64,000 bases of DNA from Rhizophlyctis rosea (taxonomy: Eukaryota; Chytridiomycota; Chytridiomycetes; Rhizophlyctidales; Rhizophlyctidaceae): the NCBI GenBank assembly GCA_027596075.1, contig JADGJC010000159.1, positions 1 through 64,000 on the forward strand, read 5' to 3'. The notes under the pieces are model-generated. The model searched no databases. It was not told where the DNA came from and saw nothing but the letters and a program-made list of their open reading frames with translations. Of the stretch, positions 8,532-62,420 are shown piece after piece. The position numbers were made by a program, and so were the translations under genes. Within the stretch, counting starts at the first letter, position 1; each line of letters starts with the position of its first letter.

Positions 8532-10065
8532 TCAATGTTTCCAAACGTCAACCACAACCAACCCCTCATCCTTAACCGCCCCCTTCTCAAGCTCCCCAGT
8601 CCACCTCTTCAGCTCCTGCCAAGCCCGCTCAGCCTCCGGAAGGTACTCCCATCCAACCCACGTATGCGGCATGCCCGGGTACACTTGAACAGTATGCATA
8701 ACACCAACAGCCGCAAGCTTATCATGTAGCACAATAGAGTCGGAGTGCAAAAGGTCGTATGATCCGGTTTGCTGTTTGCGCATTGCAAAATGAAAGCAAG
8801 TCAATAACTGCTGCTTATAATGTCTTCCCAAAATATTTGCGTGATGCGAGGTAGACATACCGCAAGGATAGGAGGCAGGCCCTTCAGATCCGCATATAAA
8901 GTGCTCAACAAAGGATATTTTTGGGGCAAGTCGCCAGCATACGCCCGTGCAGGATCTTCCAAACATCCAGGAATGAGGTAACATCCATTGCGCTGATAAC
9001 ACGATGGACCAGAAGTACAAGAGATATCCAGCTGGTAGTGATCAACGACAGTTAGACATCACCGAAATGACAGAATTTTCCTACCACCACGACAAAAACA
9101 GCACATAGAACACACTCCGCAACTTACCCAAGGCGACCACAACGCCGCACCGGCAGGCATTTGTAGTCCCACAGACCATCCGTACTGAGCCAGGTACACC
9201 AAGTTAGACATGGCCAATCCAGCGCCGGCGCTGTCGCCCATGAAAATGATGCGGGATGGGGAGATGTTGAGGGTTTTGGTGAGGTAGGTGTAGGCGATGA
9301 GGGCGTCTTGGAGTCCGAGGGGGAAGGGATGTTCCGGAGCGAGACGATAGGCGATGGCTGTGGACAGATGGTAATTTGTCATTGACTGGTAGGATATTGG
9401 TACATAGGCTGCAAAGTTTTGAAAAGAGCTGACTTACACAACACACTGGCATTGCAGTCAATAGCAATTCGTTGAGTCAAGTTACGGTGGGTAGCAGGGC
9501 TGAGAGTCCAATAAGCTCCACCATGACAATAGAGTACCACGAGGCCTTTGGATGTAACAGGATCCACCCCATTTCCATTCCCGTCCTTCAAATTCAACCA
9601 CTCTCCAGTCAAATTCCCCGTCCAATCCAACTTCCCATCCAACTCCCTCGGCCCGTTCCAAATGCCCTGTTTCTCATACTCCGCACGGACAACTTCCCAT
9701 GATGAAACCTGAACACGAGGATCGACGTCTTGCAGTTTGAGTTCCATTGTATGTTCATTCTGTCTGGACTGACGGACTTGGAGGATTAGGTCTTTGATGG
9801 ACGGCGGGGTCAAGGGTTTGGGACCAAAGGAGGAGCGGATGGTGTTTAAGAGGAGATGGAGGCGGAAGGGCCAGTGTGGGTGGGGTGGGCCGAGGATGTA
9901 GTGGCGGAAGAGGGTGCTGAGATAAAGGGACCAACTGCGGATGTAGGAATGGCATCGTTGTATGAGGGTTTGTTGGGTTTTTGAACGTGGGGTAATGGGT
10001 TCTTCTTGAGCTAGGAGGGAGGTGCTTTCGGTGGCCGAAGCCTTTGAAGTGTCGGTTGACGCCAT
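8532..10065 (-). CDS. HSL-type (hormone-sensitive lipase family) alpha/beta hydrolase, esterase/lipase
   Basis: Predicted carboxylester hydrolase. Four exons: 10065-9438, 9357-9128, then two ending at 8532. Motifs in order: oxyanion-hole HGGAYW (LYCHGGAYWTLSP), spliced VLSIAYRLAPEHPFP, nucleophile elbow GDSAGAG (Ser), LKGLPPILAQTGSYDLLHSDS carrying the catalytic Asp, and the catalytic His in PGMPHTW. The order and spacing fit the alpha/beta-hydrolase fold-3/HSL group. The N-terminal segment of about 120 residues contains a hydrophobic stretch (SWSLYLSTLFRHYILG) that could associate with a membrane. The substrate cannot be deduced. The gene starts 311 nt from the divergent HIBADH gene. Confidence 0.9.
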
Positions 10066-10376
10066 GGTGGGGAACCAGAGACCCTCGTCGTCTTCCGTTC
10101 TCTCCGCTGCAACGAAGCCAGATGGAAGTGAAGGGTCGCTGAAGGGGTGAGAGAAAGAGATGAAAGGGTTTGTTTACATCGAGGAAGAGCCGGGCCAAAT
10201 CCCGACTCGCCGGTACGAGCCACCTCGTCTTGCTGAGCCACATTTCAGTGTCCAAGCAAGTCACAAGGGCCCATCACACGCCAGGGTTTCAGAAATCGGT
10301 CGTTTCCCCTTCGTCAAAGTCATCTTGACACCGTCAGCGCGCAAATTCAACAACGACAGTCATATAGCTAAAAACA
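10066..10376. promoter_or_regulatory. Divergent promoter region, hydrolase / HIBADH
   Basis: This 311-bp spacer lies between two divergent start codons. No specific binding site is recognised. Confidence 0.5.
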
Positions 10377-11646
10377 ATGCTGCAAGCACGAAGATACTTT
10401 GCCTCTAGTAAGTACTTCCATCCGTGTGACATCATGCACATCGTTATCTGACCCTCTCTTTGCTCGCCAAAAGGTGCTAAATCGAAGGTAGGCGTAGCGG
10501 ACGCTTCGATATTGAGTTTGACATTTATACCAACAACTCCCACACACAAACCCAGCCAGCACTCGGCTTCATTGGTCTAGGCAAAATGGGGTTCCCCATG
10601 GCCCACAATTTCTACCAAAAAACCCACTCGGAAGCCGAAATAACACCACAAACACCTTCAAACAATCCCCCCTCCTCCTTCCTCATCCACGACGTCTACC
10701 CCGCCTCCGCAAATTCCTTCTGCGAATCCCACCTCCATGCCTCAGCAGCACCTCTCTCGACAATCGCGCATCACGCAGATGTCGTCGTAACGATGCTGCC
10801 GGGACCTCAACACGTGAAGGAGGTGTACCTTGGCGAAGATGGGTTGTTGAATAGTGCGAAAGTTGGGAGCGTGATGATTGATTCTAGTACGATTGATCCT
10901 GCTACGGCTAGGGAGGTTGCGAGGGTGGCGAAGGAGAGGGGTGTGCTGATGGTTGACGCGCCGGTGTCTGGAGGTGAGTTCAGTTGTGAAAGTCAAAGTT
11001 ACGCGACTTGCGAATCAACAAGCCATAACGCGTCAATGTAGGCACGGGAGGAGCTCAGGCCGGCACACTCACATTCATGGTTGGCGCTCCGTCACAGCAA
11101 GACTTTGACCGTGTTCAACCCTATCTGTCGCATATGGGGAAGAACATCGTATATTGTGGAGCAAACGGTAACGGGCAAGTAGCCAAGATCTGCAACAACA
11201 TGTTGCTAGGAATAACAATGATAGCTGCTTCGGAAACAATGAATCTGGTAACACGTACAATCTTCTCAGACATACATCAACCCGTCATCTCTGACACCCA
11301 CCACGAACAGGGAATACGCCTGGGAATGGACCCCAAACTCCTCGCCTCAATCCTCAACTCCTCCAGCGGCCGCTGCTGGTCCACCGACACCTACAACCCC
11401 TGTCCGGGCGTCATGCCCAACGTCCCCGCATCCCGCAACTATGAAGGAGGATTCGGCGTGCCCCTGATGGCGAAGGATTTGGGTCTTGCGGTCGCGGCTG
11501 CGCAGGAAGCTAAGAGCACGGTGCTGTTGGGAGCGCATGCGCATCAGATTTATAATCAGTTGGCGAGTAGTGAGGAGTTTGGGAAGAAGGATTTTTCGAG
11601 TGTGTTTAAGTGGTTGAATGATGATGCTAAGAAGTTTGAGGAGTGA
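10377..11646 (+). CDS. 3-hydroxyisobutyrate dehydrogenase, mitochondrial
   Basis: Oxidises 3-hydroxyisobutyrate to methylmalonate semialdehyde with NAD in valine catabolism, normally in the mitochondrial matrix. Four exons (10377-10407, 10560-10973, 11042-11247, 11311-11646) give 328 residues. Splicing joins the presequence MLQARRYFAST to LGFIGLGKMGFPMA, the Rossmann dinucleotide site. Other family motifs are TMLPGP, MIDSSTIDP, DAPVSGGTGGAQAGTLTFMVG, CGANGNGQVAKICNNMLLG with the catalytic Lys, and C-terminal GGFGVPLMAKDLGLA. All exon joins keep frame at GT..AG sites. The short basic N-terminus is consistent with mitochondrial targeting. The length is normal for eukaryotic HIBADH. Confidence 0.95.
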
Positions 11647-21471: not shown

Positions 21472-23744
21472 TCACGCATCCTGCTCGTACCCCTCGTCCT
21501 CCTCCTCCTCAAGGGCTTCCTCCTCCATCAATTCGTCCCCCGCTGCCGCCGCCGCCTCCGCCGCCGCATCGGACACCCTCGCCAACGTCTGATCAATCAA
21601 CGTGTTAATCACAGCCTTCTGATCCCTCAAATCCTGCCCAAAATGCTTCTCGAGCTCCGTCCGGACCGACCGGTTGGTCAGGGTGTCGAGGTCGGCGTCT
21701 AAGGTGGGGGTTTATGTGTGAGCTCAGACAGGGGTGTTCCGTAAAATGGGAATGGGTGAATCATAATAAAGAGAAAAACTCCACCTTCGATCATCTCCTG
21801 AACGACTTTCAACAAGTCCTCCGTGGTCGGCACACCGCCCTTCCAACTGGAATCGGCCTTCTTGGCCTTCTTGGGCGATGGCGCTTCGTCTTGTTCCTCC
21901 TCCTCCTCTTCTTTTGCATTGTCGTTCTCGGCTCCAATGGCGTCGGCCTATTCCCAGAAGACGCGAAATGAGCAAAGCCAGAAAGTACAAATGGCATCGA
22001 CGTTGGCAAAGCCTCCGCCCACGCAAGAAAGGGGTCATCGGTATAGGAGCTTCTCACCTTCTTCCCCTTCCCCTTGCCCCCTTCCTTGAACTTCTCCTCA
22101 TACTCCTTCCTCTCCTCCTCCCCCAACCCCTCCCAAACCTCCTTCAACTTCGCCTCCACGTCCCCGCCCTCCTTCGAAACCTCGTCCCTCTTCTCCCTCG
22201 CAAACACCTCAAAAGCGCTCTTGGCCTTTGGCGGCCGCCCGCGCTTCTTCCCCGAGCCAGGAGTGGCAGGCTTGGCCTTGGAGCTCGATCCCGCCGCGGC
22301 CTCTTCGTCGTCGTCCGAGTTGACGAGTTCGTCCGAGGTAGATTGGCCTTTCTTTGAGGTCCGGGAGACGGAACGTTTCTGTTTTTGTATTGATGTTGAT
22401 TAGGATGTCCAGAAGGCTGGAAAAGATTGACAGGGAAAGCTGAGCGAACACATACCCGCTTGACGGATCCGCCACCCTTGACGTGCTCCGCGTCGGGCTT
22501 TTTGAGGAACTCGAAGATCCTTACGGCCAAATCTCGCTACAGTCAGACCCCAAATTTTCTATCAGAGGACGGTGATGAGGACCACGATTCCAATCTTCAA
22601 GGTCGTCACCTTGGTGCCACTTGACTCCAAATGGAGTACCTGAGCGAATTCCTTCAACCCTTGTAGCGTCCACTTATGAACGCGGTAGAGCTTGTCGTCA
22701 TGTTCTTTCTGCATATCGACATAAAAAATCAGATACAGAATTGAAGGAACTGCTATGAAAGAGCCATGCAAACTTACGTTAGTGTTGAACTTGAATCCTT
22801 TGAAGTTGAGGAGATCTTGTTTCAAGTTTTTGTACTGGAGAGTAATGATCAATGGACAAATTCGATACTCAGTTTCAAAGAGGCTCAAATGATAAGTACC
22901 GTGGCCTTGCCCCATACGAGAGTGTGGAACCCCAGCAGGATTTCGTAGAACTTGTGTGTTTTGGTCACTTTTTGCACTGTTTCTGCGACTGTAGGCCGAT
23001 TGGAATGGTTAGACAAATTAGATTACGGACGAGTGTGTGCAATGTTGGGTACGAACTGGCCGTAATGTCCTTCAGCGGTGTTCCATCTCCCTGAAGGATT
23101 AGACATGCAGATGAGCATCACATTTTTAGCGTATTGTAGGTATGCTGCGTATGATCTATCAGAGTACACACCTCCGGAATCTCGATCGGCTTTGGAGTCT
23201 TCACAAACGACTGAGTAAGCGAGAGTCGGTCCACGGACTTTCGCTCACGAGGAGTACGACGCTCTCCCTCAGTCGGGGTAACAGGCGTTGAATCCTCCTT
23301 CTTCGCACGCTTCCTCTGCGGCGTCTCATCTCCTCCCTCCTTCGCGTTTCCGTCTGCCTCTGCCTTTGCTGGAGTGCCGTTGCCAGCAGGTTTGGCCTTT
23401 GGTGGGCGTCCGCGCTTTTTCGGGGCCGGTGTGGTCGGGGGAGCGGCTTCTCCGTTGTTGTTGGCAGACTCCTCCTTCGCTGGCTGTGCCTCTTCCTTTT
23501 GCGGAGATTTGGTCGGTTCCGTCCCGTTTCCTTCGTGCGCGGCCTCTTTCTTCGGTGATCCGACTTGCTGATCCTGCTGATCTTTCTCCTTTTTCGGGGA
23601 CTGGACTGGCTTGGTGGGAGAGGTTTTAGTCGGAGAAGCTGATCCCGCCTTTGTGGGTGAGGCGGAGCGACCTCGCTTCGGTGAGGATGCCTGTGCCCTG
23701 GTGTTCTGTGCGTCTGTTTGTTCTGGTTTCTCCGCGTCGGTCAT
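21472..23744 (-). CDS. DEK-like chromatin protein with AT-hook-like motifs and HMG box
   Basis: Multi-exon gene starting MTDAEKPEQTDAQ at 23744 and ending EGYEQDA at 21472. Residues 1 to about 190 are disordered SPTK/SPKK-rich sequence with an AT-hook-like KKRGRPPKAKP. Spliced exons then give the DEK core: GDGTPLKDITA, TKTHKFYEILLGFHTLVWG, YKNLKQDLLNFKGFKFNTN, KEHDDKLYRVHKWTLQGLKE and a SAF/SAP-like LHLESSGTKRDLAVRIFEF. Next is a second KKRGRPPKAK motif running straight into an HMG-box-like segment (SAFEVFAREKRDEV, LKEVWEGLGEEERKEYEEKF), then the C-terminal DEK_C-like helices (TTEDLLKVVQEMIEDAD, LTNRSVRTELEKHFG). DEK binds DNA, nucleosomes and histones. The core introns have good GT..AG sites. 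The AT-hook-to-HMG fusion inside a DEK protein is less usual. Confidence 0.85.
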
Positions 23745-31137: not shown

Positions 31138-34100
31138 ATGCACGGGTGGACATCTGTCGCGCTCCTGCTTCTGTCTGCGTCGGCTACGGCCGTTGAGGGG
31201 CTTCCTGCCTTTCCATTCCCATTGCCAAAACGTGAGTTGCGAAAAGTGACATTGAAAGCGGAATGGCTCCTGTTCGAGCATCAGATATCTAACTTGACTC
31301 CCCTCATGCACGACAGTGATGGAAAGATCCCCCGAACCCGCCTCCCAGAGCAGCACCACCCGCCTCCAATGTCTCGCCCAATGCCGCGCCGTCTACCGCC
31401 AAACCACATCCATCTGCCGCACCCAAGGCTGGCAACAGAGCTGCAAAAACATCCGGGACACCTACGACGACGATTGCCGCAGCGCCTGTGAGAGCGGTCA
31501 GCCGACGCCCCCCATCTCGCAAGGGATCGGCTCCTGCCGCAAAGCGTGCGAAGCGGCCTACATCGTGCCCGCTTACTGCAAAAAGAACGAGAATACGAAG
31601 GAGTGCAAGCGGTACCGCAGGAATTACAACACGATTTGTGAGAGTTCTTGCTCGGATGGGTTGGAGGCTGCGGCGAGTAGTACTCCTACTACTTCGAAGA
31701 CAGCGAGGACGAGGAAGACGAGAACTTCCAGGACCAAGTCTACCAAAACTTCTTCCTCTACAACCACTTCTTTTTCCACCACTATCACCACCACCACTCC
31801 TCCCCCCGTTGTAGCCACCATCAACTCGGAAATCACAAACGTCCAAAGCGCCATCGCCTCCCTACACTCTGCCGTTGAGAGTGCGGCTTCTCAAACTATC
31901 GCTGTTCCGACCCCAGCAGCAGCATCTGAAGCCGCGCAGGCATTGGAAACCCAAATCGAGGAAGTGCAGAACAAAATCTCCTCCCTCTACTACCAAGCTG
32001 CAGTGTCAACCGCGAATCAGGCTGTCGCTACTCAGGTTGGTATTTCCATTAAATATGTGCATCAATGGATCCACATATGCTAATTCCTCATATCTTCACC
32101 CAGATCGCAAACGCTCACAGCGTCCTCGCCTCCCTCGTCAACGCCGTCGACGCTATCGCCACTTCTGCTGCCGCCGCTGAAGCGTCTTCCACTTCTTCGG
32201 CTGAAGAAGAGACCTCTGCCACCATCGCACCTGTCATTTCCCCGGTCCAGGAAGTCATCCAAAGCCAAATTGACGACATCCAGGCCCAACTTTCCACCCT
32301 TTACGAGGCTGCCTCCAGTGCTTCCGGCTCGCCCGCGGTTCAGACTCAGGTCGCCCAGGCAGAGAATGCTCTCCAATCTCTAGTTTCTGTCGCTGAAGCC
32401 ATCGCTACTCCCGCCCTCACTACTACTGCGGAGGAAGGCAGCGGCACGACCACAACCACTTCGGAGGAAAGCAGTAGCACGATCACACCCGCTGCTGCTG
32501 AGGCTGAGGCTTTGGCTACGCAGTATGCCAATGTTGAGGAAGAGTTGTATAGCTTGTACGATGCGGAGACTGTGAACTCGGCTATTGAGACTCAGATAGC
32601 TCGTGCGGAGACTAGGTTGGTATCTCACGATACTTTTACAAGTGATGATGTTGCATATGTACTGATGCCTTCTTCTCATCGCTAGGTTGTCGCAAATCGA
32701 GCAATCCATTGCTGTGCTTCCGCCTGCGCCGTCTGCCACCACTACCGCTGCGGAGGAAACAAGTGCGACCCCAACTACCACTAAAGTTACGAAGACAAAG
32801 AAGTCGAAGACCACCAAGACGAAGACTACGAAGACCAAGACCACGAAGACGCAGACCACCAAGACTAAGAAGTTCAAGAAAACTACCACCACTTCGTCTT
32901 CTACTTCCACCGAGGCCGCAGAAACCACCAGCGCCCAGGCCACTGCTACCCCCGTCATTCCCCTTCCTGCATTGGAATCTGAAGCCGCGGCCGTCGGCGA
33001 GCAACTCAGTTCCCTCTACGTAGCAGCCTCTTCATACATCGCCGACCCCGCCATCTCTACCGCAATCGCCGGCGTCGAAGACATCCTGGCCTCTATCGAA
33101 TCTGAGATCCAACGGGCTACCCTTACCTCCGAGCCTGCGTCCACCCCTACTCCGGCTGCAGCGGAAGCAATCGAGTCCCGGATTGCCGTCATTGAGGAAC
33201 AGTTGTCCACCCTTCAAGCTGTTGCAGCCGTCAATACGGACGCTGCGGTGGAGACGCAGATCGCTCAGGTTCAGACTGTCCTTGCGTCCCTTCAATCGGC
33301 CATTGCGGAACTTCCTACTGCTGAGGCAGAAGCTACCACCACCTCTGCCAACCCCGTCGAAGCCCTTGAGACTCACCTTTCTTCCCTCCTTGAGGAAGCG
33401 TCTACCACAGCCGCCGAGATCGCCTCTCAAGCTGCCCCCGCCGAAACCACTACCTCCAACCCTGTCAAAGACCTCGAGGAACAAATCAACAGCGCCGAGG
33501 CGGAACTGACGTCCCTCGGTGAAGTTCTTGCCTCTGCTACCGGTATTGCGCAAGCCCCACTCCAAACCGCGGTCAACGAAGCGGAAGACGCCCTTGAAAC
33601 CCTCCTGGAACTTGCCTCCTCCCTTGAAGCCGAAGCTCCGTCCACAACCGCCCCCTTCGTCCCCGCCCTCGAAACCCAGATTGCCGCTGTGGAAGAGCAG
33701 CTGAGCTCCCTCTATGACGCTGCCGGAACGGTGACAAGCGGCCCTATTGCTACCGCCATTTCTCAAGTTGAGGATACTCTCTCTTCCCTCGTTGCGGCCG
33801 CGGAACAAGCGACTGCGCCTCCTCAAGCTTCTGCTTCTCTGCCGCCTGCTGTTCAGACTGTTGTTGAGTCCGCCGTGTCTGCTGCGCAAGGTGGTGCAGC
33901 TTCGACCAGTTCTGCTGCTGCTGCCACAATCACAAGCATCACAACCACCACCACCAAAACGACAAAGACCAAGAAGAGCAAGACCACGACCACGACTTCA
34001 AACCGCCAAGCTACGGTCACAATTACGGAAACGTCTACATCCATCTCGACTACCACTGCCACGTCCACCATCACCCGCACCCGTACAAAGACCGTTACTG

Positions 34101-34540
34101 CATCGCCTGTAACCGTCTATCTCCGTGCCTCCTCAACCGTCGCCACCTTCTCCAAAACCATCGTCCAAACTGAAGCTGCAGGAGGTGCCGCCCAAACCAC
34201 CGCCTCAGCCGCTGAAACCTCCACGTCTTCCCAAGCAACAACAGCAGCACCTACCACCACCCAACAACAACCCGCCATCGAAACAGCCCTGGCATCCCAA
34301 CTCCGCACCATCTCCTCCGCCGCCGCCCAACAAACCGGTACAGCCTCCGCATCCGCACACGCAGCGATCCAAACCGCTGCGGCGTCCATCTCCTCTCTCG
34401 TCGTTTCCGAGGGCGCCCCGACGCAGCTTGCGGAAAGCATTGTGAGCCAAGCTACGGCTACTGGGACGGCTGTTGCGACAGCTATTGCGTCGGGGGCTGG
34501 GTCGGCGCAGGCTACGGTCGGAGCTCCGCCTCCGTTGTAA
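31138..34540 (+). CDS. Large secreted protein: duplicated six-Cys module plus helical repeats and Thr/Lys linkers
   Basis: Predicted 1059 residues from four exons (31138-31231, 31317-32035, 32104-32615, 32686-34540), all joined in frame. Residues 1 to about 21 (MHGWTSVALLLLSASATAVEG) form a signal peptide. A 12-Cys region follows in two copies of C-x3-C-x9/10-C-x8-C-x10-C-x3-C (RLQCLAQCRAVY... and GSCRKACEAAY...). The remainder is Ala/Thr/Ser-rich with about eight related units near 50 residues, of type ALETQI..VEEQLSSLY.AA ... TQIA.VE..L.SL, predicted helical hairpins. Units are separated by Lys/Thr tracts (KTKKSKTTKTKTTKTKTTK) and Thr/Ser stretches likely to be O-glycosylated. No GPI signal or transmembrane segment is evident at the C-terminus (ATVGAPPPL). 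I recognise no family; a cell-wall or extracellular role is inferred from composition. Confidence 0.85.
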
Positions 34541-35356: not shown

Positions 35357-38300
35357 ATGAAGCGACGAAGGGACGAGTCCGAATCGGAAGAAAGCGACTC
35401 AGGCTCCGAAACAGACTCTTCTTCTGAGGAATCCGATGTGAAGGACGACGACCTCAATCCGGCTGACTGGGGCAACAAGGGTAAGTTGCTGCCGATTTCT
35501 ATATACACGTCGGAGGAGTTGCGCTTCACATCACTCTTCTTTCAACCATACAGACTGGCTAGTGAAGCAAATATTACGGTGCAAGTGGGACTATAATGCA
35601 GAGCTGAAGTGAGCATAGTTGGTGTCAATATCCGTAGTCACAAGAGAAATATATTTATGTCGGTTCACCAGACCAGACTGGATGTTCCTCATAGACTGGG
35701 AGCCCACGATGAGGAAGAACGGAAGTGAGTGTGTGGTCAATATCAATGCAGACCATGATTGAGGTTTGCTGGCTGACATATTGCGTTTTATTCATATTAG
35801 CGTGGAAACATTGGGAACCTACTTGGCAGCCCAACAAAGATGTGGTACGTCGAAGTAACATGGAGAGGAAGGAAATGGGGAGTGAAAGAAGTAGACTAGG
35901 GAACTGGAAGCATTGCACTAGAGTTTAAAAGTTTTTATGCAAATGGGTGCAATGGATGAAGGTCTGGAGCGGCTATGGTTATGTGAAGGGCCAGAAAGGA
36001 AACTTGTGGGCGCATAAATCAGACGTCCAGTGATCAAAGCTGATTGGGCTGAGCGGCCGTCTCGCCATGGGTCACCAAAAGCAGTATGCCGAGCTAATCT
36101 TTTCAATATTCCTCAGCCAAATAGACTTCAGATACAATACAGCAAGAACTCCCGAGAGAGCTATTGTCCTGTTTGCCAGAGATCACTCAACCCTCCAAAA
36201 CAAGAGAGAGATGCCAAAGGTCGGAAGAAGAAACGAGTGAGACATTGCAAGAAATGCCGATTCTTTCACGAATATTTCTGGGACAAGTATGGTATCGACA
36301 TACAGCGACCGTGCCGTATTAATGAGGAAACGGGGAAGCATGAATGGTGGGACTATACATACGAGGAGGAATTCAAAAATGCCTGGGAGAAGCAGACAAA
36401 GCGAGAGCAAAAGGAAAAGGAGAGAGAACGAAGGAAGGAGGAGAAGAAGCGACAAAAAGGGGAGGAGAGGAAGAACCACATGAAGCGACGAGGGATCATA
36501 CAAATCAGTGATTCTGAGGACGACGATCATGTGCCGGCCGGGAAACCTTCGACGGGATCTTCTGATAGCAAAGTGAATGAAGTGGAGCAGGCGGGACGGG
36601 AAGAAGGCGAGAAGAAGAAGACAAAAGTAGTCATTGGTGCCGATGGAAAGGAGTTTGTCGTCTCGAGGGAGCCTTCTCAGAAAGAAAAAATCGCGGCACA
36701 TTCTGAACGGCTGGAGACTGGTCAGGTCCCGCCGAAAGGCGACAGGGCTCAACCTCCAAAACCAGCTCCACCGACAACTTTATCACTTACAGCGACGGCA
36801 TCATCGCCGGGTCTCACCCTCAAAAAGGCCGTACGATCGGAACCGGAGCCTGTGAAATCGAAGCCTTTGACACTCAAAAATCTTCTTTACCCTGACCTGG
36901 ACGAACCAACCTCCTCTTCCTCTCCTACCGCGACTGCATTGCACACCCCGCTTACAACTTCACCAACATCTGCTTACCCTCCTTCATCGGATCCGTTCCG
37001 CGGCCTTTTCGCATCATCACGATCCTACAGTACCGCAAAACCACTTCTGAAGAAACGCCCACCAATCCCCAATCATTCTCGCCCATCAACATCAATCCCT
37101 AACCATCCCCGCCCTCCGACATCAATCCCTAACCACTCTCACCCATTGACGACCGTTGCCAATCACTCTCGTCCATCACAGTCCGATGCCGCGAAAGCTG
37201 AATCCGCTACGCAACAACCGCAACCCATACCGCGAGCAGATCCGGTTCCGAAGGCACGAACAAGTGCACCGAGTTTACCGAAAGATGCGAATGGAAAATT
37301 GAGGTTGCCGTTTGTGATTGGGCAGTCGCCTCGGGGGGAGACAGTGAAATCTTCGCCGGTTCTCACTCATGCTCTTCCGCCAAAGCCGACGGTGTCGAAT
37401 GTGCCAACATCCACAACGCCATTAAAAGATCAAATGTCCATAACCGCTTTAACAAATCCATCTCCTCCCAATGCCTCGTCCACTACCGCACCCGCTCCAA
37501 AGCTAACGCATCAAATCCAGCCAGTCCCCACCACCCCATCCACACCCCAACCCGCACAGAAACCCTCCTTCACTTCTGCTCTCAAATCCACATACCCATT
37601 CTTCCCTCAACTCCCCACACCCGCCACGCTTCGCGTCAACTTTGCTTTCCCGACCAACTGGTTGGACGGTAACATAAGACCTCCCTTATCTGAAGACCTC
37701 GATCGGTCGTGGGAGGATGGTCCCGTGAATGGGGGCGGACCGTCTTGGGAGGAAGTTCAACGGGGTGTGGAGAGGATGAAAAGGGAGATGGAGGAGGGCA
37801 AGAGGAGGGAGGAGGAGAGGAGGAGGGAGAAGGGGAAGGGGAAGGAGGAGGAAACGAGCGGTGCGGGGAAGGGGAAGGGGAAGGAGGGGGATGAGGAGAG
37901 TGGGAGTGTGGTCAGGAAAGAAGGTGAGGAAAGCAATATTCGGTCCATCATCTCGTGGGAGGATGAGGATGAGGATGAAGATGAATGGGGTGCTGCCAAA
38001 GGGGTTGCCGAAGAAGAGGGAGGGGTTGAAGAAGAAGGAGTTGAAGATGGGGAAGTCGTTGAGGAGACGTTCGTTCCGTTTAAGGGCAATTCGTTCCTTT
38101 TACCGGATCTATCCGGGCCGGCGAAGTGGGACGATGGTGTGGTGGAAGAAGAGGTTGATGAGTATGATGAGTATGAGAATGCGCCAGATGCGCCGGCGTT
38201 GCTTGAGGAGGTGGAGACGGGGGGTGTGGAGGAGGAGGGTGTGGGTGGGAGTAGTGGGGAGGCGGAGAAGAAGAAGGCGGTGGGGACTGGGGGGTTGACG

Positions 38301-40109
38301 TTGGCGCAGATGTTGGCGATGGAGGAGGAAGAGATGGAGGAGGGGGAGGAGATGGAGGAGGGGGAGATTGTTGAGGAAGGTGGTGGGGATGTTGAAAGCC
38401 AGGATGGAGAAGAGGATGTACCTGTTTTTGTGGCGGTTGCGGGGTCGAGCGCTGATTCTGTTTCGACTCCGGTGCCGATCCCTTTTGCGGCCGTCCCGGC
38501 GCCTATCCCTGTTCCCACCCCGATCCCTGTTGCAGCATTCCCGACACCTATTCCATCCATGGGTGTGCCCTCACCGATTACCACAATTGCAACACCTGCT
38601 TCCGCGCCAACTCCAATCCCTGTCGCGGCGTTGCCAACGCCTACTCCTGTTGCCAATGTTCCTACACCGGTCGCCACAGTCCCTACTCCCGTTGCCAATG
38701 TTCCTACACCAATTGCCACCATTCCTACACCTGTTGCCAACGTTCACATACCGATCGCCACAATCCCGACTCCTGTTGCCAATGTTCCCACACCGATCGG
38801 CACAATTCCTACTCCTGTTGCAAATTTTCCCGCATCGATCGCCACTCTCCCCACACCAAGTCCCAATGTGTCGATCCCAACGCCTATTCCATCCATTCCT
38901 GCTCCCACGCCCATTCCAGTTGCTGGTATGGAAGTGACAGACGGGCGTGCTGTTGTCGATGAGGACGTTGTGATGGTTGATGCAACTGTTTTGGAGGATT
39001 CTAGTAAGGGAAAGGGAGGTGATGCGGAGGAAGGGAAGGGGAAAGGAGGTGAGGAGGCGGAGGCGGAGAAAGGGGAGGCGAAGGACAAGGCGGTATCAAC
39101 AGTTGCTGATGATGGGCCGGTGCCGAAGGTTGGGGATGGGGGGAAGGTGGGTGGGAGTGTTGGTGTTGGTGTTGGTGGTGCAAAAGCTGCACCTGGAGGC
39201 GTGTCCGTGGAGTTTCTTGAAGATGTGGTAGGTGAGGATGGGCCGGACGCGGTGGCGGCGAAATCGTCTACGTTGAAAGAGAACGTTGCGGCAATGGAAG
39301 GAGTTGAGATGGCCTTTATGGGAGATTTGGTGGGTGAGAGTGGAAGTAGTCCACCCGTCATGGCGGAGACGGTGAATTTCGTGAATGCGGAGAAGGGCAC
39401 GGTGGGAACGGCGGATCGGGCGGTGTCGAGTGTATCCGGATCTAGTGGTGACAAGGGAGGTGCGAGCAGTAGGGATAAAAAGAAGGAAAAAGAAGACGAC
39501 TCGCAACGTCGTGCCGTTTTGTACCCCTGGGTGACGGACTTGGAAAAGAGTCCCAAAAAGGCCAGCGGTCCGTCCACCACTTCCTCTATCATCACAACAA
39601 CCGAAGTCCCACCCCCCACACCAGCAGCTCCGCAACAACCTCCCCCTATCACCACCACCATCGCAGCAGCACCTGCACAACAACCCCCTTCAACACCCCA
39701 ACAACCCTCAAAACGTAAACGCGCCCCATCGACAGCGCCATCCACCCCGTCAGCGACAGACACACCGACAGCCAAACGCCCACGTCGTGCCGCGGTTGCC
39801 GCGGCGGTCAAGATTGAGAGTTCGCCGGGTGTTGTGGGAAGTGATGATGAGGAGGAGGATGGTAAGGGTATGCCTACGCGGGGGAGGGGGAGAGGGAGGG
39901 GACGTGGACGGGGCAGGGGAAGGGGCAGTAGTAGTGGGAAGGGAAGAGTGAGTGGTGGGAAGAAGGGTGGGGATGTTGGGCATGGTGGTTTGGAAGGCAG
40001 TAGTAGTGGTGGGATGAATATTGGGTATGGGTGTGAGTGGGGGACTTGCAGGGAGATGTGTGGAAGTAGGGAGGAGTTGGAGAGGCATTTGCTTGATGTG
40101 CATTTGTGA
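35357..40109 (+). CDS. Chromodomain-like and C2H2 zinc-finger protein with long disordered region
   Basis: Predicted 1454 residues from five exons: 35357-35480, 35554-35608, 35672-35724, 35801-35854, 36031-40109. After an acidic start (MKRRRDESESEESDSGSE), exons 2-4 splice to a chromo-like module: DWLVKQILRCKWDYNAEL, KPDWMFLIDWEP, GTWKHWEPTWQPNKDVVRR. Next comes a CxxC pair (YCPVCQRSL, RHCKKCRFFHEYFWDKYGID), a basic/charged coiled region (EKERERRKEEKKRQKGEERK) and about 1000 residues of low complexity: Pro/Thr-rich, acidic, and a degenerate repeat of PTPVANVPTPIATIPTPV type (38.6-38.9 kb). The tail has PKRPRR-like and RG repeats (RGRGRGRGRGRGRG) and a final C2H2 finger, CEWGTCREMCGSREELERHL then LDVHL. 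Probably nuclear and chromatin-related. Family not recognised. Confidence 0.8.
38560..38930 (+). repeat. Coding tandem repeats, PTPVANVPTPIATI type
   Basis: Units of about 30-36 bases such as CCTACTCCCGTTGCCAATG with a preceding C, recurring about eight times with substitutions, encode Pro-Thr-Pro-Val/Ile-Ala-Asn/Thr-Val/Ile-Pro. The repeat sits in the disordered middle of the chromo/C2H2 protein. Confidence 0.85.
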
Positions 40110-57842: not shown

Positions 57843-58376
57843 TTATTCAAAACACTCCTTCCTCCCATCCCTCCACCTCTCAAAAACTCTACTACAATCA
57901 AACTTCTCCTTCCCCAACATCTCATTCACCTCATTATGCACCCCACAAAACCACTTGCTCAACCCCTCCGCCCCGCTCACATCCGGTGGATTGACCTCCA
58001 TAACGTTGCGGAGATGTTCCGCGCATGGTGAACAAGGGTAGAATCGCGAGAAGGAGGTGAGGAATTGTTGCATGAGGGTTTGTTCGGTTTGGGTAGGTTT
58101 AGGCGGGTAGTAGGCGGCCATTGTGTGGAGGAATGTCCAGGTTGCGTTGCCGAGGGTTGGGGAGTCTGCGGGGCAGGGGAAGGGTTCGTAGGAGGAGGTG
58201 GAAGAGGAAGTGGCAGCAGCTGCTGCCGCGACGCCTGCGGTTGCTGCTGTTGCTTTTGACTTTTTACCGGCTTTGGGTAGTTTGCGGCGGAGGTCGCGGA
58301 AGTCGGAGCACGGCCCGCATGGTTTTCCGTCCACTTCAACTATGTTGGCCTTTGTGGTTCCCTCAGCAGTTGGCAT
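57843..58376 (-). CDS. FAD-linked sulfhydryl oxidase Erv1/ALR
   Basis: 177 residues, single exon. Erv1 works with Mia40 in the mitochondrial intermembrane space, reoxidising Mia40 and passing electrons to cytochrome c or oxygen. The family core is complete: ADSPTLGNATWTFLHTMAAY, FSRFYPCSPCAEHLRNVM with the active-site CxxC (PCSPC), LSKWFCGVHNEVNEMLGKEK and FDCSRVFERWRDG with the structural Cys. The N-terminal KPCGPCSDFRDLRRKL carries the shuttle CxxC, here CGPC. An Ala/Ser-rich linker separates shuttle and core. The gene diverges from the Rrp7 gene over 337 bp. Confidence 0.95.
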   Translation of the reverse strand: MPTAEGTTKANIVEVDGKPCGPCSDFRDLRRKLPKAGKKSKATAATAGVAAAAAATSSSTSSYEPFPCPADSPTLGNATWTFLHTMAAYYPPKPTQTEQTLMQQFLTSFSRFYPCSPCAEHLRNVMEVNPPDVSGAEGLSKWFCGVHNEVNEMLGKEKFDCSRVFERWRDGRKECFE

Positions 58377-58713
58377 TATGAGAGAGCTGACTTGTTGTGG
58401 TGAGACCAGACTGTCTTCCTTATCGGACGCGGTGATCTAATGCAGTGGTTCGGGAAAAGGAAGTAAAGAAAGAAGGAAGAGTCAAGATGGATTAGTCAGT
58501 CGAATCCAAATCGATACCAGCATGCAGCATCAACGCGTCAATGCGCAGCAGGTGGCGCCGCCATACTATGTGGCGTGTAATACAATGTGGCTGGTATAAT
58601 TGGATGTGGGAACAGGAAGGCTCTCAATTTTTTTGGCAAAACTTCGCGCGCGTTCCGTTGTTCTGCTGCCTGCATTCTCCTTCACCAACACCCACGCGAT
58701 AGCAATAACGAAG
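58377..58713. promoter_or_regulatory. Divergent promoter region, Erv1 / Rrp7
   Basis: 337-bp spacer between divergent starts. Likely shared promoter. No specific motif is identified. Confidence 0.45.
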
Positions 58714-60019
58714 ATGCCTGCGGAGAAGAAAAAGAAGCGAAGTCAGCCCTCTAAGGAGGGACCAGGCACCACCACCATACCCCTTCCACAATTTAATCAA
58801 TTTAAACTTCTGGAAGTAACAATGCCACCCCTCTCCCTCACTCCCCTCCCCAAAACCTTCACAACCCACACACTCCCAACCCCACCAACCCCGCACCCAG
58901 TAACGCACACAATCCTAATGCGCCCCCACGAGTTCCGCCAAACAACCCACTCAACATCCCTCACATCCCTCCGTCAACCCTTCCCCGAAAAGCGCACCCT
59001 CTTCCTTGCCAACATCCCCACCGACAGCTCCGAAGCCCACTTCCGCCGCCTGTTCAGACGGTGCGGGACGGTGGAATGGGTGCAGTTTCATGATCAGGGA
59101 TTCGTGAAGGGACGTTTGGGCGGGAGGGTGCATAAGGTGGGGGGGTCGGCGCATGTGGTGTTTAGGGAGGAGGAGGCGGTAGAGCGAGTTATGGGGATGA
59201 AGGTTCGGAGAAGGGTGTGGAGTGATGCGGTGGAGGAAGGGGAGAAGGATGGGGAAGAGGGGGAAAGGGCGGGTGATGCGATGTATGAGGATGAGACGGA
59301 TAAGGACGCGATGGACGAGGATGGCGTGCCGGGAGGGAGGAAGAAGGGACCAGAACCCGTTGGCATGGAAAGTAAGTTTTCATCCTGGTGGAGAATCGCC
59401 GATCATCTTGCACATTTGCATGCTTATCCACGCCCATCTCTTATCAAACCTCCAATCTCACGCACCACTTCCTCCCCACCAGAATACCTCCTAAACCACT
59501 TCCACTCCCGGCCCCCACTACCAACGCTCTCCCACCAAGTAAACACCTCCCTCGCAGCCTTCGAATCCGCCGAAGAACAAGCCCGTCTCGCCGCCGCACG
59601 CCGCCACAACGTCCCCGACGAAGACGGCTTCGTCCTCGTCACCCGTTCTCGTGGCCGGAGAAACGTCAACACAGACGCGAGCGGCGCGAGCGTCACGGCC
59701 GCACGGCCAGAGGAAATTAAGAAGTTGAAACCGAAGAAGTTGGAGGTGGTCGACTTTTATAGGTTCCAAATGAGGGAGAGTAAACGGAATCGTGAGTGTT
59801 TTGATTTCTTTCGCATTTGTGTAGTGGGTACATCTGATGGGTCTTTTTGGGTGGGCGGAACTATTCTTCGGGTTTCGCCCTTGTTCCGTATGGTCATAAC
59901 TGTTGCTGATGTGCACACTCTCAAATCCACCAGAACTCGCCGACCTCCGCCGCAAATTCGAAGAAGACAAAGAAAAGATCGCAAAACTAAAAGCAAGTCG
60001 GCGCTTCAAGCCGTACTAA
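58714..60019 (+). CDS. Ribosomal RNA-processing protein 7 (Rrp7)
   Basis: Component of early small-subunit pre-ribosomes needed for 18S rRNA maturation in the nucleolus. Three exons (58714-59371, 59483-59791, 59934-60019) give 350 residues. The N-terminus KKKKRSQPSKEG is basic. An RRM-like module includes KRTLFLANIPTDSSEAHFRR and GTVEWVQFHDQGF, followed by an acidic insertion (DEDGVPGGRKKGP). The C-terminal Rrp7 signature is spliced together: DGFVLVTRSRGRRN, VVDFYRFQMRESKRNQLADL, RRKFEEDKEKIAKLKASRRF and the end KPY. The match of that tail to Rrp7A is strong. Confidence 0.92.
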
Positions 60020-60200
60020 GTACTCCCCTCGCCTGCCGCCCGTGTAGCATATGCTGCAACACCCGTCGAACTTACTGGTCCTCAGCGCAACATGTAAATA
60101 TAACAATATAGGCGTGGGTGGATAGCGAATTGTAACAATTGAAGGCTGTTTATTGGTGCATGGGCTCGTCTCTTTCTTCAAAAGGGCTCTTACGATCTTT
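60020..60200. other. Rrp7 3' flank
   Basis: Short 3' flank before the tandem-repeat block. Nothing else is seen. Confidence 0.4.
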
Positions 60201-60550: not shown

Positions 60551-62420
60551 CGTTTATCTATCCATGGTGGCTAATCTTGCTAATGGCCTATTCAACGCTA
60601 CTTTCAAACATCATAGCCCTCCCCAAATCCATACAACTACTTCAGAAAACCCAAAACAAAGTCTAATCTATACATAAAAGCGGGCTACCAAACCCTTCAA
60701 ACCGCACTCGAAGAACGCGCAGAGGCCAAAAAGACCCTCCGGACGCCAGAGGTTTTACTCCGCGAAACTCCGGCGACTCAACCCGAAGGGAATCACTGTG
60801 GACGGCAAATCTTGGCATCGTACTGGTCGTCACAGCCCTTCCCCACCAATCAATACAACTACCAACTACCTGCCTGCCCCACCGACCAGTCTATCTAAAA
60901 GTGCGGAGACAGCGTCGTCGGAAAGTCCAGAGCTTGACGTCTTGGTCTTGTTTGGCACGGGACTGCGTTGTGGTTTGAAAAGTGTATATCTAAGTAATCT
61001 CAGAAACACGTAACGGGAAGAAAAAAGACATTGATCAAAGGTGATGAAAAGGATGGGATGTTGGTGACAGCGAGATGTCGATCTTGAGTGGGACTCGAGT
61101 TCTGTGGGTCCTGAAAGGAACGAATGAATGAGTGAATGAGTGGATGCTTGGGTAGATGAACAGGCGAAGGTAGGCAACGTACCCGACCGCCACCCCGTTG
61201 CTGGTAGCAATCCCATATCCCTGCCTGTGCCGAAGAAGTCGGGAATCTATAAGATGTATGTATCAGTGTCACAAAATAGAAAGAGAATGTGCCGACGAAA
61301 AACGACCTCAAGGCACTTCCATATCCCATGTTATCAGAACATGGCCAAGACCCGAAGTGCCCTTTCCGCGGGTACCATCAAGAATAACGTTTTTCTTGGC
61401 TGCATGAGTGGGAATGCTTCGGCGTGAACACTATTGCACCGCGTCGTCCTTTTTGAACTTTGCAAATGCCCAGTCTCTTTTGAGGCGACTCGGAGGGTAG
61501 GGTCTGTTATGACTCGAATCCGCACAGAGTTCTTTGTTTCAGGTCGAAGACGAGAAGAAGTATTCATCATCAACGTTCATCATCCTCTCTCTCAAATCTT
61601 CATGACTACAACACGAATCACGCTCAAGGACCATGTCATGGAAGGGGAATCCTACAACTCCCTCGAGTTCCGATGTTGTTGTTGATCCTTGCTTGAGCGT
61701 GACGGAGTGTACCGGCTGTCACGATTACCCTCGACAGGCAGCGACGGATTCCACGCCAGGAAGTCGATAGCATTCGATGCTTCTTGATAAGCGGCCGCCA
61801 CCCCCAAGCGATATAGAAGGAAAGAAACGAATCACTGAACCATACAGTCAGCCAGAACCAAACACTAGTACAACTCACCCGACAGACCCACATGACACGT
61901 CCCCCCTTCTTGCCACTGAACCGAACGGCACTGAGATCCCACAATCAATGGAAACAGTGACCACAAAAAGGGTCCGGAACTGGCCGCTATCCCCAGCGAA
62001 CCCCCCTCGTGGGAAGCCGCCAAGGTTCAACTGGAGGGCCACCTTCATTTGCTGGTAAGGACGGACGGGAACACCAAAAGCGTCATAACGACGAATTGGC
62101 ATCCCTCGCACGCGTCACTCACCAACTCCGGTGTGCCCATCCAGCCTGAGTCTCCTGGCATCCTTCTTCATAGAAGTAGCTCAAGGACCCACACCAATCC
62201 ACTCCTGCTTTATAAGCCCATGTTGTCCGTATCCAGCACTCAGACGGCCCGAGGTGGAAGAAAGGTCGGGTCTTGTACTTGTTTAGCCGGGACGGCGACG
62301 ATCCCCGACTGAAGCAGGGAAGTCTTGCATGACGAGGTAGGAGGAGCGGGACGGAGGAGTGGTGTTGGTGATTGCATATGGTGACGGCGGGAGACGGCGG
62401 ATTACTTCGTCTCAACTTGG
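60551..62420. other. No gene recognised
   Basis: About 1.9 kb of short overlapping frames with no motif, splice series or RNA signature. The composition changes little from the neighbouring DNA. Confidence 0.45.

Follow-up and report, generated by a model that had tools for sequence, protein, structure and literature searches.

We have analyzed a four-exon gene of Rhizophlyctis rosea located at 31138-34540 (+) in a 64,000-base window, the whole stretch of DNA considered here, which corresponds to bases 1-64,000 of a 91,994-base contig in an assembly of 44.1 Mb in 634 contigs. Joining the open frames in phase yields a predicted protein of 1,059 amino acids plus stop. The structure of the gene is as follows.

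31138..31231, + strand: exon 1, start and signal-peptide-like segment, aa 1-32
31232..31316, + strand: intron 1, 85 bases, GTGAGT...CAG with CTAAC within; branch site read by eye
31317..32035, + strand: exon 2, a single open frame with both Cys modules, K/T tract 1, helical unit 1 and half of unit 2
32036-32103, + strand: intron 2, 68 bases, GTTGGT donor, interrupts helical unit 2
32104..32615, + strand: exon 3, from translation
32616-32685, + strand: intron 3, 70 bases, GTTGGT donor, interrupts helical unit 4; found at the same place in a copy of the gene on contig 5
32686..34540, + strand: exon 4 and stop codon, open frame, from translation

Long open frames make up exons 2 and 4, and the intron phases fit. 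Although the GTTGGT donor shared by introns 2 and 3 is unusual, the joined frame restores repeat units 2 and 4. Since the Cys modules, K/T tract 1, unit 1 and half of unit 2 run uninterrupted through exon 2, the Cys region and the first repeats are joined within that exon alone, and for this part of the protein the original prediction of a joined product holds. Introns 2 and 3 both begin GTTGGTAT, and each interrupts the helix B of its repeat unit, the two places differing by about 7 residues within the unit; the shared start and placing is either a trace of unit duplication or chance.

Elsewhere in the window an ERV1/ALR sulfhydryl oxidase gene (57843-58436, -) adjoins an RRP7 ribosome-assembly gene (58600-60111, +), and a 3-hydroxyisobutyrate-dehydrogenase-type frame is found at 11029-11646 (+). 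Of the 10 neighbouring frames scanned there, two more gave sub-cut-off matches, to an alpha/beta hydrolase (9379-10173) and an HMG box (21809-22399), and 7 gave no match. An open frame of 1,363 residues (36018-40109, +) contains Pro/Val/Ala/Thr repeats and has as its only match a sub-cut-off zinc-finger at the frame end.

The N-terminal part of the predicted protein contains two modules of six cysteines each, with helices given in the numbering of the structural model described below.

31370..31489, + strand: Cys module 1, aa 50-89, spacing x3-x10-x8-x10-x3, model helices 12-33 and 36-55
31535..31651, + strand: Cys module 2, aa 105-143, spacing x3-x9-x8-x10-x3, model helices 63-77, 82-86 and 91-116

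The translation bears out the duplicated six-Cys spacing first noted from the DNA, with the second copy differing by one residue: Cys 50, 54, 65, 74, 85 and 89 form C-x3-C-x10-C-x8-C-x10-C-x3-C, and Cys 105, 109, 119, 128, 139 and 143 form C-x3-C-x9-C-x8-C-x10-C-x3-C. When the pattern is relaxed, the six frames of the window contain two matches, both in this gene, and 60 first-order Markov windows contain none. The two modules align with a score of 56 (27% identity), which was reached by 0 of 1,000 full shuffles and by 11 of 1,000 shuffles with the Cys held fixed (maximum 70); their likeness beyond the Cys is thus modest. The spacing is mirror-symmetric. When the Cys are paired from the outside in, their positions sum to 139, 139 and 139 in copy 1 and to 248, 248 and 247 in copy 2, and in every helix the three Cys face the same side (resultants 0.84-0.91). 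The Cys head has a charge of +5 over aa 49-146, and KR/RR sites are found only inside module 2.

Structure prediction, suggested earlier as a check, gives two helical hairpins, one per copy, in a single-sequence AlphaFold2 model of residues 36-153 (mean pLDDT 77.1, pTM 0.57; the remaining four models have mean pLDDT 66.0-69.6). The model helices span 12-33, 36-55, 63-77, 82-86 and 91-116, and the Cys of each copy sit on two arms, as a hairpin predicts. The original prediction had placed two disulfide-bonded hairpins in each copy; the mirror-symmetric spacing and the model helices point instead to a single three-rung hairpin in each copy, which would make the block a tandem of two hairpins. The simplest reading is that each module forms an antiparallel helical hairpin with three level predicted disulfide rungs. 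The fold lists for the Cys block contain unspecific helical bundles only; those named there include copper storage proteins, spidroin N-terminal domains and invertase inhibitors, which were set aside because their levels are usual for helical bundles.

The remainder of the protein consists mainly of helical units separated by basic tracts, as listed here.

31706..31783, + strand: basic Ser/Thr/Lys/Arg tract 1 (K/T), aa 162-187
31937..32169, + strand: helical unit 2, aa 239-293, 35.7 bits, outside the profile seed, split by intron 2
32248..32418, + strand: helical unit 3, aa 320-376, 85.0 bits, seed member
32503..32722, + strand: helical unit 4, aa 405-454, 27.2 bits, outside the seed, split by intron 3
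32789..32911, + strand: K/T tract 2, aa 477-517, charge +14 over aa 467-520
32963..33130, + strand: helical unit 5, aa 535-590, 88.3 bits, seed member
33161..33319, + strand: helical unit 6, aa 601-653, 77.3 bits, seed member
33359..33610, + strand: weak units 7 and 8, aa 667-696 and 705-750, -0.2 and 8.3 bits, not above shuffles
33659..33826, + strand: helical unit 9, aa 767-822, 84.5 bits, seed member
33941..34000, + strand: K/T tract 3, aa 861-880
34241..34537, + strand: C-terminal Ala/Ser/Thr/Gln segment, aa 961-1059, ending ...VGAPPPL, hydrophobic tail absent

A repeat profile was built from four units (the seeds, 77-88 bits) and scored against two sets of 300 shuffles. It finds two non-seed units, at 35.7 and 27.2 bits compared with shuffle bests of 10.4 and 10.9, while other stretches (8.3, 5.8 and -0.2 bits, and five lower) were not above shuffles with this four-unit profile. 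The "about eight" units counted at first therefore correspond to six clear units, four of which are the profile's own seeds, and about three weak ones; the three K/T tracts located here agree with the earlier description of helical units split by Lys/Thr tracts. In an alignment of seven hand-trimmed units, hydrophobicity is highest at positions 2, 6, 9, 13 and 16 of helix A and at positions 1, 5, 8, 12, 15, 19 and 22 of helix B, a heptad pattern. The hydrophobic moments of both helices are above all 2,000 per-unit shuffles. That of helix B is also beyond column shuffles (0.002), and that of helix A, which is 1.07 at the helical angle versus 1.12 at the strand angle, is not (0.16 reach the value). 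A model of the repeat block (289 residues) made without relatives is poor, with pLDDT 54.7 and pTM 0.35, and shows mostly helices. Met, Cys and Trp are all absent from the 913 residues after aa 146.

The charge of the protein is arranged in blocks. In hand-drawn segments from the N-terminus, the net charge is +5 in the Cys head, +7 in tract 1, -30 in units 1-4, +14 in tract 2, -43 in units 5-9, +8 in tract 3 with the stretch after it, and -2 at the C-terminus. The variance of charge among 50-residue windows over aa 22-1059 is 31.45, against a mean of 7.22 and a maximum of 15.66 in 2,000 shuffles, so that the alternation of basic K/T tracts with acidic coiled-coil blocks goes beyond every shuffle. 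This alternation is the strongest whole-protein feature that we found, and it had no place in the original prediction. It could in part follow from the presence of K/T linkers between acidic coiled coils and be incidental.

At the N-terminus, the signal peptide proposed earlier survives as a signal-peptide-like start, judged by a hydrophobic run at aa 4-19 (best 11-mer mean 2.05) and a putative A-x-A-type site. These features support a protein of secreted type; secretion itself, and all later steps of the mechanism proposed below, we infer. Further along, 19-mers at aa 277-278 average up to 1.57 and so nearly equal the start of the protein (1.65) in hydrophobicity, which counts against a secretion-based explanation. 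The protein has no GPI-type tail, its C-terminus being without a hydrophobic tail, and no known wall-binding domain. A LysM search of the genome itself gave one match.

The original prediction recognised no family for either part of the protein, and none emerged from the two family libraries searched (Pfam and NCBIfam), from PDB sequences or from a protein database that includes fungi. No Pfam family reached the cut-off for the Cys block, the repeat units or the whole protein, and the strong match of the Cys block to a named family that would have spoken against the original prediction was not found. The only family listed for the 118-residue block was COX6B at E 0.92 (10.1 bits versus a cut-off of 26). 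The whole-protein listings MerR-DNA-bind, DUF7723 and Dynactin_p22 all fell under the cut-off and were set aside. NCBIfam, a library made for prokaryotes, was queried with the Cys block, for which it returned 0 families, and with the frame of exon 4, for which none reached its cut-off. PDB sequences gave no credible match, with one chain at E 1.6 and 0 with the two-copy Cys profile. In the database of ~5.8 billion proteins, whose search needs a shared 5-residue word and applies a length rule, no protein matched at E <= 10, either among 264 candidates for residues 1-150 or among 194 candidates for the 184-residue head; both queries represent the Cys region and not the repeat block, and proteins of ~323-581 aa lie outside both searches. 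Stretches matching a peptide pattern numbered 8 in viral contigs and 92 in prokaryote genomes, and by tblastn none of them is related to the Cys block. Among the papers surveyed on fungal secreted helical hairpins with CX3C, on twin CX9C with secretion and on CX3C with CX10C, no title or abstract opening describes this Cys spacing in fungi.

Coverage of the protein database was controlled with the ERV1-type frame of the window, which drew 675 candidates, of which 585 proteins matched at E <= 1e-20. The best 120 of these 585 are led, after the window's own protein, by Spizellomyces punctatus (56% identical across 81% of the query), with Linnemannia and Thoreauomyces next to it; these 120 also include Polyrhizophydium, Blyttiomyces, many Mortierellomycota and Coemansia alongside Thoreauomyces. 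Since the control finds fungal proteins, the database includes fungi. By this one gene, the genome is that of an early-branching fungus, probably close to the chytrids and Mortierellomycota, and none of the best 120 matches comes from a near relative. ERV1 is conserved, however, and the control thus shows coverage and not the detectability of a fast-evolving protein. Given the shared 5-residue words and length limits, the absence of matches is meaningful for close relatives and not for distant ones.

Contigs 5 and 107 of the assembly each carry a damaged-looking relative of the gene. The contig 5 copy (piece L014 3811-4565, +) is truncated; it covers exons 3 and 4 in part and retains intron 3 at the same place, there with a GTATGT donor. 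It lacks, in frame, 49 residues in the region of the first helix of unit 5, and is open across 227 aligned codons. Over these codons, with gapped columns (including those 49 residues) excluded, gene and copy differ at 17 first, 17 second and 46 third codon positions, corresponding to dN 0.076, dS 0.296 and dN/dS ~0.26. The concentration of differences at third positions indicates a real, translated frame. On contig 107 (piece L013 3629-5233, -) a 534-residue open frame is composed of scrambled gene pieces, with a repeat piece upstream of the Cys piece and the Cys piece in a different frame; it is either rearranged debris or a chimera. The stretch between its repeat and Cys pieces appears ubiquitin-like by eye. 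A 50-base stretch of the window (61710-61759) has 82-84% matches in both L013 and L014 and is probably a dispersed repeat. Weak genome matches were also seen on contig C448 (E 2.2) and, to the repeats, on contig C246 (E 0.66). A match of the Cys block on contig C112 (E 0.04) adjoins frames that by eye resemble a CAF1-type nuclease, and was discarded.

Truncated and scrambled copies in the same genome, a low-complexity tail and the failure to find relatives at the sensitivity used are what might be expected of a gene that arose recently and is under loose constraint, with a composition that would stem from repeat expansion and drift without any specific mechanism. The dN/dS of ~0.26 against the contig 5 copy, the heptads and the Cys symmetry argue otherwise, and we regard this explanation as rather unlikely. 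As far as sequence can tell, the gene is most likely real, intron-bearing and lineage-restricted, and its product most likely a secreted structural protein. The sequence itself shows the reading frame, the mirrored Cys modules, the heptad helix-hairpin repeats and the alternating charge blocks, while the disulfide pairing and the function are predicted.

A structural surface or wall protein with a disulfide head and a charge-block tail is the role that we tentatively favor, as a serious possibility that stops short of being probable. In such a protein the two Cys hairpins, with rungs C1-C6, C2-C5 and C3-C4, would pack into a small stable head. The basic K/T tracts are probably O-glycosylated and, together with the acidic coiled-coil hairpin blocks, would make up a block polyampholyte. 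Blocks of opposite charge would attract each other between neighbouring chains, and the basic tracts may also bind acidic wall or matrix polymers. Chains joined in this way would harden into a matrix, be it of a wall, slime or holdfast, and the disulfide head would provide its fixed node. It is a much more doubtful proposition that the protein founds an extracellular architecture of its own, in which the three-rung hairpin tandem would be a rigid node and the alternating-charge coiled-coil copolymer a self-complexing glue or matrix polymer. The novelty of architecture suggested at first is possible for the whole, but every one of its pieces (a disulfide-laddered hairpin, heptad coiled-coil hairpins and Ser/Thr/Lys linkers) belongs to a known kind.

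Extracts from published surveys report two large secreted families without recognisable domains in Batrachochytrium (PMC5364385) and 854 secreted tribes counted in four chytrids (PMC9926174). Because chytrid secretomes include domain-less families, as the former describes, the present finding is neat rather than startling. The protein nevertheless provides a testable anatomy: the disulfide pairing is predicted residue by residue, and the charge-block tail predicts salt-dependent assembly. If the proposal is true, a fungal case would be added to the protein glues that work via opposite-charge complexing; if not, the protein is another lineage-specific secreted one.

Hairpins of the alpha-hairpinin type can occur in tandem in precursors, and the peptides are usually short. 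The tandem basic Cys hairpins (+5, aa 49-146) recall them in general plan (PMC11591084, in part), and the gene might then encode a secreted bioactive protein, with antimicrobial or effector-like hairpins that are released or displayed and a tail that is a mere stalk. The Cys spacing differs from both alpha-hairpinin motifs given in that source, the only KR/RR sites fall within module 2, and the tail has 913 residues where such peptides are usually short; this role seems to us improbable.

Similarly improbable is a surface-active protein whose amphipathic hairpins would spread on hydrophobic surfaces in the manner of HsbA (PF12296), the fungal hydrophobic surface binding protein A, with the Cys head and K/T tracts as anchor to the cell. 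One of the seven units scanned matches Pfam HsbA (E 0.0009, 20.1 bits), and the Ala-rich helices have heptad hydrophobic positions. However, the match is under the cut-off of 33.5 bits and spans just half of the profile, sister units score almost as high with other helical families, HsbA is not listed by Pfam for the whole protein at E <= 1, and at E <= 0.001 the genome itself yields no match to HsbA.

A gene-model artefact or pseudogene, which the GTTGGT donors at introns 2 and 3 might suggest, is very improbable in view of the long open exons 2 and 4, the fitting phases, and the contig 5 copy, with its GTATGT donor at the intron 3 site and its signs of selection. An intermembrane-space CHCH-type protein, proposed because each module has two CX9-10C pairs (C54-x10-C65 and C74-x10-C85; C109-x9-C119 and C128-x10-C139) that lie in a helical hairpin by their spacing and the single-sequence model helices, is the least plausible of all: COX6B is the sole Pfam family listed for the Cys block, but its score lies far below the cut-off (10.1 bits versus 26, E 0.92), and the additional outer Cys pair, the hydrophobic secretory-type N-terminus and the long Ser/Thr-rich tail all speak against it.

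The structural surface or wall protein that we favor can be compared with several known systems. It is like HsbA in being a putative fungal surface protein and in the weak match of one repeat unit, and unlike it in that the match is under the cut-off and the Cys head and charge blocks are additional. The pollen polypeptide Ole e 6 has CX3CX3C at both ends and is set apart by description, since it differs in spacing and is acidic, from a plant and without a repeat tail. A Cys module shares with it a size of ~50 residues, six Cys and two antiparallel helices, as outlined in excerpts of PMC8198727. According to extracts of PMC11591084, alpha-hairpinins follow a 4C motif (CX3CX4-20CX3C) or a 6C motif (CX3CX3CX4-20CX3CX3C); neither is matched by x3-x10-x8-x10-x3 or x3-x9-x8-x10-x3. 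The modules resemble these short plant peptides in the helix-loop-helix, in CX3C at both ends and in inter-helix disulfides, which are predicted here, and differ from them in that the inner Cys lie nine or ten residues in, which gives a longer ladder. With CHCH and twin CX9C proteins the modules would share two helices joined by inner Cys pairs, and module 2, like COX VIb1/Cox12p and COA6 as these are described in part of PMC7909247, has one CX9C and one CX10C. Unlike CHCH proteins, the modules have a third, outer Cys pair four residues further out, stand in tandem behind a secretory-type N-terminus and match no CHCH profile. By the tests made, the predicted head is a member of neither the CHCH hairpins nor the alpha-hairpinins, while it resembles both in anatomy.
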